This document shows positions 46,993-50,538 of a stretch of DNA of 64,000 bases, piece by piece. The stretch comes from Anatilimnocola aggregata. Lineage in GTDB: Bacteria > Planctomycetota > Planctomycetia > Pirellulales > Pirellulaceae. How positions within the stretch are numbered: position 1 is the first letter of the stretch; every line of letters begins with the position of its first letter. The notes beneath the pieces are model-generated. The model had not been told where the DNA came from and did no database searches. It worked only from the letters and a program-made list of their open reading frames with translations. The stretch is from NCBI RefSeq assembly GCF_007747655.1, contig NZ_CP036274.1, forward strand, positions 2,356,001 through 2,420,000, given 5' to 3'. Position numbers and translations under genes: made by a program.

Positions 46993-47235
46993 ATGGTCGA
47001 CTTTAATAGTGTGCTTGCCAGTGCCCAGCAACTGACCGAAGAAGAGCGTGTACGGCTCATCGATGCGTTGTGCGAAACGCTGCCGGAAGAACCAGGATCT
47101 GAATTGCATCCTGAATGGAAAGAAGAGCTGGAACGCCGAGTTGCAGCGATTGAGGATGGAACCGCAACTTTGATTCCGTGGGAAACGGTGCGCGACGAAG
47201 CCCTTGAACGCTTGAAACGCTCCCATGATCGTTAA
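46993..47235 (+). CDS. Addiction-module antitoxin
   Basis: This 80-residue protein resembles the short antitoxins that pair with ParE/RelE toxins (addiction-module component family, TIGR02574-like): an N-terminal helical part with LTEEERVRLIDALCETLPEE, then an acidic stretch with HPEWKEELERRVAAIEDGTA and IPWETVRDEALERLKR. Start ATG at 46993 follows GGAGG. It overlaps the next gene by 11 bases, so toxin and antitoxin are cotranscribed and coupled. Antitoxins of this type usually repress their own operon; no operator was identified. Confidence 0.85.
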   Translation: MVDFNSVLASAQQLTEEERVRLIDALCETLPEEPGSELHPEWKEELERRVAAIEDGTATLIPWETVRDEALERLKRSHDR

Positions 47236-47515
47236 GTTCGACTCAGCCGCAAAGGCAGAATTCGACGAAACGCTCTTGTGGTACGGGCAGCAAAGTTTTG
47301 AAGCTGCACTCAGGTTTTCGGCGGAGATTGATGCCGCGATTCGGAAAATAGCCGACGAACCAAAGCGATTCTCCAGAACACTCGCAAAGTGTCAACGCTG
47401 CGAACTGATTCGATTCCCATACAGCGTTATCTTTTTCGCCATTGCTGGAAAGATTCGCATCGTTGCGATCGCTCACCACAAGCGGCGGCCAGGATACTGG
47501 CGTCGCCGCGTCTAA
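47225..47515 (+). CDS. ParE/RelE-superfamily toxin
   Basis: The 96-residue protein has the compact toxin fold: VKFDSAAKAEFDETLLWYGQ, RFSAEIDAAIRKIADEPKRF and IRFPYSVIFFAIAGKIRIVAIAHHKRRPGYWRRR, with the typical C-terminal His-Lys/Arg end. By family, it either inhibits gyrase (ParE) or cleaves mRNA at the ribosome (RelE); the sequence does not decide. It overlaps the antitoxin gene by 11 bases. It ends 15 bases before the convergent DAHP synthase gene. Confidence 0.86.
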   Translation: MIVKFDSAAKAEFDETLLWYGQQSFEAALRFSAEIDAAIRKIADEPKRFSRTLAKCQRCELIRFPYSVIFFAIAGKIRIVAIAHHKRRPGYWRRRV

Positions 47516-47530
47516 ATTCATATTGATCTT

Positions 47531-48544
47531 CTACAGCGTCTTTCCCAGTGCCGTCGCCACCGTCCGGCAGCGAGACATGGTCTCGTCGAACTGTTTGAAG
47601 TTCAGCGATTGGTAGCCATCGCTGAGCGCCCGTTCGGGATCGGGGTGTACTTCGAGAATCAGTCCATCCGCACCGGCGGCGATGGAAGCGACCGCCATGT
47701 CGGGCACCAGATAGGTGTGGCCAGTTCCGTGGCTGGGGTCGACCACGACGGGCAAGTGCGTCTTGTGATGCAGGTACGGGACCGAAGCCAGCGGCAACGT
47801 GAACCGCGTATGTGCTTCGAAGGTGCGAATGCCGCGCTCGCAGAGCATTACGTTCGGATTGCCTTCGTTGAGGATGTATTCGGCGGCCAGGAGGAACTCT
47901 TCCATTGTGGCCGAGGGACCGCGCTTGAGAAGCACCGGCTTGTTGGCCTTGCCCACTGCTTCGAGCAGGCGGTAGTTCTGCATGTTGCGAGCGCCGATTT
48001 GCAGCACGTCGGCATACGAGGCCACCAGCGGCACTTCTTCGGTCGACATGATCTCGGTCACAATCGCCAGCCCGGTTTGCTCGCGAGCTAGGGCCAGCAA
48101 CTTCAACCCTTCTTCTTTCATCCCTTGAAAGGCATACGGACTGGTTCGCGGCTTGTAGGCACCACCGCGGAGCGAAGTGGCACCGGCCGCTTTCACGGCA
48201 TGGGCACAGGCGAGAATCTGCTCTTTGCTCTCGACCGAACAAGGGCCGGCCATAATGCCGATCGAACCGGCACCCACCTTCAAGTTCAGCGCGCGAATTT
48301 GAGTGGAGTCTTTCTTCACTTCGCGGCTGGCCACTTTGTAAGGAGCCAGAATCGGCATCACCGACTCGACACCTGGTCCGCTGGCGAGAGCCTCTTTCAT
48401 TTCGGTTCGCTTTTCGCCGATGGCCGCAATCACGGTTCGTTCGGTGCCGGTGATGGGGTGGGCTTTCAGGCCAAAGGATTCGACCCGTTCAATCATGTGT
48501 TTGATTTGCTCGGGGGTGGCCCCTTGTTCCATGACAATGATCAT
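47531..48544 (-). CDS. aroF: 3-deoxy-7-phosphoheptulonate (DAHP) synthase, class I beta
   Basis: This is the first enzyme of the shikimate pathway, joining PEP and erythrose-4-phosphate. It opens [19 protein letters not shown], a ferredoxin-like regulatory domain common in this subtype, then the TIM barrel with [59 protein letters not shown] and [19 protein letters not shown]. All catalytic residues are present. I start at 48544, with GGAG about 9 bases upstream, giving 337 residues. The frame is open for 46 more codons to an ATG at 48682, also with GGAG, but those codons have markedly lower third-position GC. A leader peptide and intrinsic terminator lie upstream. Confidence 0.93.
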
Positions 48545-48752
48545 CGAAAACAGCTCCGGCAGAGAGGGAATGTGGTAGTCAATCGCTGCAGCCAAAGGTT
48601 GCAGTTGTTGGTGAATCGATTCCAAGGTGACACGAATTTCGCTACGGCGATTTTCTCGCGGGCGAGCAACAATAGCAGTCATGGCGACAGACTCCGGATG
48701 GTCGAAGGCATTCCCCTCACAGACTCAACCGGAAAATATCGCCCTAGCCAAC

Positions 48753-48791
48753 AAAAAAGCCCCGAGCGACCGGCTGGTCCCTCGGGGCTTT
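48753..48791 (-). terminator. Intrinsic terminator in the DAHP synthase leader (attenuator)
   Basis: On the minus strand a perfect 11-bp stem (48781-48791 with 48756-48766) continues past a C/C mismatch into four more pairs (GACC/GGTC) with a GGCT loop, and is followed by six T residues (48758-48753). It lies after the aromatic leader frame and before the DAHP synthase gene, and no other gene ends here on this strand. It is a textbook Rho-independent terminator placed as an attenuator. Confidence 0.9.
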
Positions 48792-48818
48792 GAGATGGTT
48801 TTGCTACTGAACGAGCTT

Positions 48819-48902
48819 TTACGCAGTCTCCGCGGCCCCGGGGATGAACCCGGTAAAATAAAACCGCCAATATCCGCGCACGAACTTGTTCATAAGCGGC
48901 AT
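48819..48902 (-). CDS. Aromatic leader peptide of DAHP synthase
   Basis: This 27-codon frame starts at ATG 48902, 6 bases after GAGG, or three codons later at 48893. It contains the cluster GYWRFYF and in all 7 aromatic residues over about 13 codons (Phe, Tyr, Trp). It ends 28 bases before the terminator stem that precedes the DAHP synthase gene. The segment CCCCGGGGC (48843-48835), inside codons 20-23, can pair with the 5' arm of the terminator over 9 bp with one bulge. A ribosome stalled at the aromatic codons would leave this segment free and prevent termination; one that reaches the stop codon would cover it. This is the layout of the classic phe and trp leaders. The codons and hairpin are seen directly; the regulation is inferred. 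Confidence 0.8.
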   Translation of the reverse strand: MPLMNKFVRGYWRFYFTGFIPGAAETA

Positions 48903-48928
48903 TATCGTCCTCGGATTCCGCTTTTCAA
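48901..48928 (-). promoter_or_regulatory. Possible promoter of the leader-DAHP synthase transcript
   Basis: On the minus strand, TTGAAA (48928-48923) and GATAAT (48906-48901) are 16 bases apart. Transcription would begin near 48893, so the leader peptide would be leaderless, starting at the second ATG. If the first ATG is used instead, another promoter further upstream is needed. Tentative. Confidence 0.4.
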
Positions 48929-49140
48929 GAGTGAGACGGAAATTTTCTCGGAAGAAAGCCGTTTTTTGAATCGCTGCGGTGAAGGAACGTGCTGGTTTCG
49001 CGATTGGGTCACGAAAGTGATCTGCCGTCCGCAAAGTGGACTTCACAAGATATGATAAGAGGCTGAGGCGGAGGGAACCACGCTCGTACGAGCTCCAGTT
49101 GGTGCGGTGCGGGCAGCTTGCAGGGAGAGGTTAGTCAGCA

Positions 49141-50538
49141 ATGACGCAGTACGATGTCGATGTGCTGGTAATTGGCACGGGTCCCGGCGGTGAAGGGGCG
49201 GCCATGCAGGCAGTCAAGCAAGGCCTGCGGACTGCTGTCGTCGAACGCTTTCATCGCGTAGGGGGCGGCTGCACGCACTGGGGAACGATTCCCAGCAAGG
49301 CGCTGCGATTTGCGATTTTTCAGTTGCTCGAGGTGAACAGCAATCGCCTGCTGCGCGATGCGGGTTACAACCTCGAGCTGACGTTTCCGCAACTGCGCCG
49401 CTCTGCGGAAAATGTCATTCAGTTGCAAGAAGACATGCGCCGCGGATTTTACGACAAGAACGATGCCCGCCTGATTCACGGCGAAGCCAAGTTCATCGAT
49501 CCACACACGGTCGAAATCAGCGATGCCCGCGGGCTCGTCGAAAAGATCACTGCCGCGCATGTCGTCCTGGCCGTGGGTGCCCGGCCGTATCGGCCACCAG
49601 ATATCGATTTCAAGCATCCGCGCATCTTCGATAGCGATACCATTCTCAACCTGCCAGCCACACCCAAGACCATTACCGTGTATGGCGCGGGAGTGGTGGG
49701 CTGCGAGTATGCGTCGATGTTTCGCAACCTCGGTTGCAAGATCAACCTGGTCAACACGCGGCAGCAGTTGCTGGAGTTTCTCGACGATGAAATCTGCGAC
49801 GCGCTCAGTTATCATCTGCGCGAAACGGGCGTGCTGATTCGCCACGGCGAAGCTTACGAGAAGGTCGAAGGACTGAGCGACGGCGTGGTGCTGCATCTTA
49901 AGAGTGGCAAAAAGCTGAAGACCGATATCCTGCTCTGGGCCAACGGCCGCACGGGCAACACCGACCGACTGGGGCTCGAAAGTGTCGGGCTCAAGGCCGA
50001 CTCGCGCGGGCAACTGGCCGTCGACGAGTCGTACCGCACCTCGACTCCCAACATCTACGCGGTCGGCGACGTCACCGGTTATCCGGCTCTCGCGAGCGCA
50101 GCCTATATGCAAGGGCGCGCGGCGGTGCTGCACATCAACGGCGACGAATGCGCCAGCCTATTAGCGAAAGACATTCCCACGGGCATTTACACTAGCCCGG
50201 AAATCAGCTCGATCGGCAAGAGCGAGCGAGAACTAACGACCGAAGGAGTGCCTTACGAAGTGGGGCATGCCCAGTTCAAGAGCCTGGCCCGCGCCCAGAT
50301 CACGGGTCGCCGCGTCGGCATGCTCAAGCTGCTGTTTCATCGCGAAACGCTGCAAGTCCTCGGTGTCCATTGCTTCGGTGTGAATGCAGCCGAAATTATT
50401 CACATCGGCCAGGCGATCATGATGCAGCCCCCGCCCCACAACACGCTGATGTATTTCATTAACACCACGTTCAACTATCCCACGATGGCCGAAGCGTACC
50501 GCGTGGCTGCGCTGAATGGCTACAACCGGCTGTTCTAA
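49141..50538 (+). CDS. sthA: Soluble pyridine nucleotide transhydrogenase (Si-specific NAD(P)+ transhydrogenase)
   Basis: This flavoprotein moves hydride between NADPH and NAD+, mostly to dispose of excess NADPH. It is built like dihydrolipoamide dehydrogenase: FAD motif [15 protein letters not shown], second dinucleotide site [15 protein letters not shown], and [20 protein letters not shown]. The redox disulfide is absent, since the N-terminal motif is [16 protein letters not shown] with only one Cys, which is typical of SthA. The C-terminal interface has [18 protein letters not shown]. Length 465 matches E. coli SthA. GGAGAGG precedes the ATG. It is divergent from the DAHP synthase leader region. 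Confidence 0.94.

Follow-up and report, generated by a model that had tools for sequence, protein, structure and literature searches.

The aroF locus and its leader region

The window analysed here, a stretch of 64,000 nucleotides from Anatilimnocola aggregata (contig NZ_CP036274.1, positions 2,356,001 to 2,420,000), carries on its minus strand an aroF gene (47531–48544) whose 337-residue product is a DAHP synthase with an N-terminal ferredoxin-like domain. The assignment comes from profile, structure and domain matches: the product matches NF006421 and TIGR01361, both above cut-off, and is related to the solved structure 1rzm along its whole length. A 383-residue frame beginning at 48682 was discarded; relatives diverge upstream of its residue 47, and the recurring ELFS-like letters found there are the read-through of an AGGAG-type ribosome site. 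Because the Pfam ferredoxin-like domain starts at residue 47 of the longer frame, relatives mostly align from about there, and a Shine-Dalgarno-like GGAG precedes this position (48554–48557, minus strand, position counted from the sequence), the aroF start is probably at 48544 and the longer frame (extension 48545–48682) is probably an over-extension. The sthA-like gene upstream is divergent and starts at 49141 on the plus strand, so there is no evident minus-strand gene that would end at the terminator described below. An antitoxin-like (PF09720) and ParE-like (PF05016) gene pair (46993–47515, plus strand) faces the 3' end of aroF in convergent orientation.

Upstream of aroF, a short minus-strand frame is open both from an ATG at 48902 (27 codons) and from an ATG at 48893 (24 codons). 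The initial annotation had described the 27-codon version, with the cluster GYWRFYF and seven aromatic codons over about 13; the frame, the cluster and the codon count stand, and the start probably needs to be moved. A sigma-70-like promoter, TTGAAA-16-GATAAT, lies at 48928–48901 (-35 hexamer 48923–48928, -10 hexamer 48901–48906, minus strand), where 0.8 chance sites are expected in the 2.3 kb scanned; CTTG-type -35 letters stand at the same distance in many relatives. Since the ATG at 48902 overlaps the predicted -10 hexamer, we discarded it and take 48893 as the likely start. The leader peptide is then MNKFVRGYWRFYFTGFIPGAAETA, 24 codons plus the stop TAA at 48821–48819 (48819–48893, minus strand), with aromatic residues F4, Y8, W9, F11, Y12, F13 and F16. 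The proposed stall codons Y8, W9, F11, Y12 and F13 lie in the GYWRFYF cluster (48855–48875, minus strand), a placement also based on the clusters in relatives. Transcription is predicted to start at about 48893–48894, that is, at or adjoining the leader ATG.

A strong intrinsic terminator (48753–48791, minus strand), predicted from sequence and folding, begins 27 nt past the leader stop, rather than the 28 bases first counted, and reads AAAGCCCCGAG-GGACCAGCCGGTCG-CTCGGGGCTTT. As originally described, it precedes the DAHP synthase gene and has a perfect outer stem of 11 bp with six Ts. Pairing of three of these Ts with AAA is included in the 11 bp, an additional 4-bp stem lies within the loop, and a U run follows. 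A simple scan that allowed only loops of 3–8 omitted this hairpin, probably because of the loop limit. The RNA from the leader ATG through the terminator folds at z -5.7 relative to shuffles, and the RNA from 48893 to 48683 at z = -6.9. When a stalled ribosome is modelled, a segment late in the leader (region 2, UCCCCGGGGC, 48835–48844, minus strand), also identified by the swap tests below, pairs with region 3 (GCCCCGAGGGA, 48778–48788, minus strand), which overlaps the 5' arm of the terminator. The alternative pairing first noticed as 9 bp thus holds up, as 10 bp with one bulged A (48782).

Such a combination of a terminator and an alternative structure in a 5' untranslated region is also what a T-box or riboswitch with a terminator would present. 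An Rfam search of 48600–49100 found no family near its gathering score, T-box, riboswitch and leader families included; the best matches reached 18–20 bits and belong to sRNA families with thresholds of 39–70. The sensor that recurs in relatives (below) is a coding cluster and not a conserved fold, and the probability that we would give to a T-box or riboswitch is close to nil.

Recurrence of the leader upstream of aroF orthologues

Orthologues were collected from three sources: 60 genomes (our own and 59 relatives, 48 of which have an orthologue), the best 80 loci of a longer list from a genome contig collection, and 118 genomes across the phylum; of these last, 29 (our own included) have an orthologue at E <= 1e-115 and 89 are uninformative. 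Upstream regions of 550 nt were anchored by tblastn, our own included. Identical regions (L036, L049, L052 and L089) were dropped, a distant homologue (L003) and the paralogue from our own genome (L002) were kept apart, and near-copies such as L031/L040 were retained, which left a first set of 106 distinct regions. Under a strict rule (at least five F, W or Y in ten codons, the leader ending 0–60 nt before a terminator with a stem of at least 8), 62 of the 106, our own included, have an aromatic leader and a terminator. The controls contain no such pair: not a single case was found among 2120 dinucleotide shuffles, 106 reverse complements or 1395 tiles taken from other parts of the loci. The strict rule is failed by 44 regions and a looser one by 34; applied by script, the looser rule finds 72/106 against 9/1060 shuffles and 1/106 reverse complements, and about one of the 72 is therefore expected by chance. 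Inspection of the looser listing by eye added nine regions (L011, L014, L022, L026, L032, L068, L073, L093 and L097) for a total of 71/106; relative to that set the script gains L017 and L088 and loses L042.

The expectation that the aromatic codons and the hairpin would be conserved between variable flanks is borne out, since both recur in most of the orthologue upstream regions examined. The other genome of the same genus has the leader MSKLVRNYRWRFYFTGFIPGAAEIA and a terminator whose letters are changed and whose stem is intact. Counted by genome under the strict or looser rules, the arrangement is present in 42 of the 48 relatives that have an orthologue (27/29 plus 15/19). In the phylum sample it occurs at 17 of 30 loci (looser leader, strict terminator; one locus, L262, is mis-anchored and was not properly read). 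These 17 include 7 of the 20 loci whose genomes are related to ours at no rank below the phylum, and one such family (f50) has the arrangement at 5 of 7. A FastTree phylogeny, which has many weak forks and includes the mis-anchored row and was used only for its broad pattern, places 85 rows with the arrangement and 49 without it so that 23 changes are needed, where shuffled labels require 40; the arrangement is lacking throughout one clade of 12 rows. Such a pattern is in keeping with an ancient feature that was lost repeatedly, or with cases that our scan missed. Five members of the 12-row clade (L095, L098, L101, L105 and L112) have an upstream frame that is open for 82–667 codons, and judging from these frames their aroF orthologues may lie directly behind another gene.

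The 62 leaders have a median length of 26 codons, and the gap from stop codon to terminator has a median of 29 nt and lies between 20 and 40 nt in 55 of them. The transcript start in the window is a prediction from sequence alone, and it is conceivable that an unrelated small RNA, or a gene for a small aromatic protein, finishes at this terminator, with aroF served by a promoter of its own further downstream. The promoter scan of 2.3 kb found no second promoter nearer aroF. Such a unit would not be expected to keep so narrow a spacing between stop codon and terminator, to be absent from all 1395 other tiles, or to have a region 2 matched to the terminator arm (below); we regard it as very improbable.

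From 49 additional loci (19 + 30) we also drew 27 further leaders, leaving out one without a strict terminator (L192), repeats (L193, L249, L250 and L252) and a near-copy (L255); some of those kept are near members of the first set (L253 to L076, L257 to L079, L258 to L090). Having been picked for the presence of both leader and terminator, they are a test of pairing and spacing and not of frequency.

Composition of the aromatic cluster

The cluster stays aromatic from leader to leader and its order varies, as in FGYFWFYF, YYFYFWFFF, GYWRFYF and YRFWFHF. Within the best 12 codons, every one of the 62 leaders has F, 60 have Y, 51 have W and 49 have all three residues; of the 27 further leaders, 25 have W and 22 have all three. 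Because the leaders were chosen for aromatic clusters, these counts are informative only for the presence of W and for the mixture. Trp codons are thus part of the cluster, besides those for Phe and Tyr. The Phe codon in leaders is mostly TTT (173 of 255) and in the genes mostly TTC (533 of 681, L002 included), a bias that could make decoding slower or help the RNA to stay open.

A long aromatic cluster might also act through the peptide itself, as in TnaC, where the peptide causes stalling together with a free aromatic amino acid that the ribosome binds. Here an aromatic nascent peptide, perhaps with such an amino acid, would arrest the ribosome without any scarcity of charged tRNA, and the residues past the cluster, often RGAGGG, do look conserved as peptide. 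However, this RGAGG-like tail is the coding product of the GGGGC in region 2, and it is absent from several leaders whose region 2 has other letters (for example L044, L082 and L090). Which aromatic residues occur, and in what order, also varies between species, unlike in known arrest peptides. We consider peptide arrest quite unlikely.

Antiterminator pairing and ribosome position

If region 2 acts as the antiterminator strand, its position relative to the cluster and the stop codon matters. Defined as the best partner of the terminator arm, it starts 5–17 nt past the last aromatic codon in 52 of the 62 leaders, and it reaches no further than the stop codon in 57 and extends past it in 5; a ribosome within the cluster therefore leaves region 2 largely free, and a ribosome at the stop covers it. 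The pairing is also matched species by species. Each region 2 paired with its own arm gives a sum of -851 over the 62 leaders, against a permuted mean of -724 (sd 15.7), and 0 of 20,000 permutations were as good; own pairing beats that of a shuffled region 2 by more than 1 sd in 46/62. Compared with the arms of the five nearest relatives, the own pairing is better in 39 leaders and worse in 23 (Wilcoxon p = 0.0007). The preference persists among 15 sequences less than 75% identical (z -4.9, 0 of 20,000 permutations) and in the 27 further leaders (z -5.05, 0 of 20,000), and a decoy segment upstream of the ATG has no preference for its own arm (z +1.5).

We then folded each leader up to the terminator loop with the ribosome at different positions, counting the arm as sequestered when five or more of its bases were paired. 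Placing the ribosome on the middle aromatic codon sequesters the arm in 59 of the 62 leaders and placing it at the stop does so in 11, whereas with no ribosome the arm is sequestered in 52; the corresponding numbers for the 27 further leaders are 27, 3 and 19. The proposal that stalling exposes the antiterminator segment and that reaching the stop masks it agrees with these folds (59 against 11, and 27 against 3). In the window leader, 7 arm bases are sequestered with a stalled ribosome, 0 with a ribosome at the stop and 0 without a ribosome, and here folding indicates that a 1:2 stem also protects termination when there is no translation. Because the antiterminator forms without a ribosome in 52/62 leaders (and in 19/27 of the further set), the rule that no translation means termination is true of this genome and not generally. 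When the window leader is folded at full length, the terminator has the lowest energy in all the ribosome states that we modelled, the stalled one included, so that the switch would have to be kinetic, decided during transcription.

Predicted leaderless start

In 35 of the 62 leaders (our own included) a -10 box ends 6–9 nt before the chosen leader ATG, compared with 20 of 1240 random positions (4–9 nt), and such spacing is found in 8 of the 27 further leaders. Shine-Dalgarno-like letters precede the leader ATG in 9/62 cases, against 85/106 for the gene. In the distant family f50, promoters were found 37–39 nt before the ATG in four of five leaders, and none was found for the fifth. Judged by promoter spacing, the mRNA is likely to be leaderless here and in many relatives, though not universally.

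Other biosynthetic loci

The strict terminator scan found no aromatic leader with a terminator at 20 trpE, 10 trpE2/pabB-like and 19 pheA loci, and none was found in 20 upstream regions of the paralogous DAHP synthase. The nearest candidate in these scans was at L136, 692 nt upstream of the match: a frame in which four of ten codons are for Phe, adjoining a terminator. The paralogue in our own genome (L002) is 49% identical to aroF and has no leader in its upstream scan. In another genome a DAHP synthase paralogue of about 50% identity adjoins a prephenate dehydratase gene (G041:C1:1812427-1814433; also in G039 and G042), a gene order that suggests a phe-linked isozyme. No leader and terminator for the corresponding amino acids were found at 15 ilvB and 16 hisG loci. 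All of these scans span few genomes.

At 9 of 16 leuA loci, by an uncontrolled count, a Leu-rich open reading frame is followed 32–48 nt later by a terminator. One of these is in our own genome (L237), with the leader MRLPGLLLDLLLALALGRT at about G000:C1:1848560-1848625 on the minus strand; the others are L233, L234, L235, L238, L239, L240, L241 and L244. The leuA leaders are probably a second attenuator family in planctomycetes.

Discussion

We consider it highly probable, on comparative sequence evidence, that the leader region is a ribosome-mediated transcription attenuator of aroF. The classical phe/trp-type reading proposed at the outset is supported by the recurrence of the arrangement, by the species-by-species fit of region 2 to the terminator arm, and by the folds with stalled and stopped ribosomes. 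We infer that the leader is translated and that stalling and termination respond to amino acid supply, as follows. Transcription would start at or adjoining the AUG at 48893, as the promoter suggests, and a ribosome would load on the leaderless mRNA and trail RNA polymerase. When Phe-, Tyr- and Trp-tRNA are plentiful, the ribosome would reach the stop and cover region 2 (48844–48835); with region 2 covered, the terminator (48791–48753) would form and transcription would end. If one of the three charged tRNAs ran short, translation would stall within GYWRFYF and region 2 would pair with 48788–48778, so that the terminator would come too late and aroF would be transcribed.

In E. coli, the pheL/pheA and trpL/trpE attenuators use stalling codons, a 2:3 antiterminator that competes with a 3:4 terminator, and masking at the stop; each of them senses a single amino acid and serves a terminal branch. 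The planctomycete leader would share this scheme of stalling, alternative stems and masking. It differs in that the entry step would be controlled, with no such leader at the 20 trpE and 19 pheA loci.

The closest system that we found in the literature is the aroF operon of Corynebacterium glutamicum, where a leader, aroR, with Phe-Tyr-Phe exerts ribosome-mediated attenuation, and where Phe limitation acts and Tyr limitation does not (PMC11802643, PMC4046766). As far as the available portions of these reports describe it, aroR likewise attenuates a DAHP synthase gene through a leader with aromatic codons; they mention no Trp codon there, whereas W, Y and F occur together in 49/62 planctomycete clusters, in a different phylum, the comparison being one of descriptions. 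In Acholeplasma, the uORFC-13-1 motif upstream of aroF has a predicted open reading frame that contains one or more Phe codons and is followed by a terminator (PMC8632094), and so resembles the planctomycete leader in its order of Phe-containing frame, terminator and aroF. According to the portion of that report available to us, its 24 representatives come from a single genus and from environmental DNA, its consensus includes a ribosome binding site and it involves Phe only, unlike the planctomycete leaders. Leaderless leader peptides that begin at the transcription start without a Shine-Dalgarno sequence are described in the available parts of work on Actinobacteria (PMC8079986, PMC5784534); those starts were mapped, whereas the planctomycete start is predicted from promoter spacing only. 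A study of leader-gene distances to starts that includes Planctomycetes does not mention an aroF leader system (PMC4833913). Among the papers that our literature search listed, none describes a leader peptide at aroF in planctomycetes, and an earlier mention in print may exist. The proposed mechanism is of the classical trp/phe kind and already reported for aroF in Corynebacterium; as far as we have searched, the new points are how widely it occurs in Planctomycetota and the input from all three aromatic amino acids.

A broader reading, to which we give about even chances, is that this three-input attenuator is old in Planctomycetota: one leader peptide, on a leaderless mRNA in many members, would respond jointly to how fully tRNA-Phe, -Tyr and -Trp are charged and so set entry into the shikimate pathway, and the trp and phe branch genes would be without an attenuator. 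On this reading many members seem to be two-state switches for which read-through is the default when no ribosome is present.

Planctomycete cells have unusual internal membranes. The present findings are strong comparative evidence for coupled transcription-translation attenuation in these organisms, at aroF and probably at leuA. Attenuation at aroF would imply that ribosomes run close behind RNA polymerase in planctomycete cells, and the aroF leader offers a ready reporter for testing that closeness.
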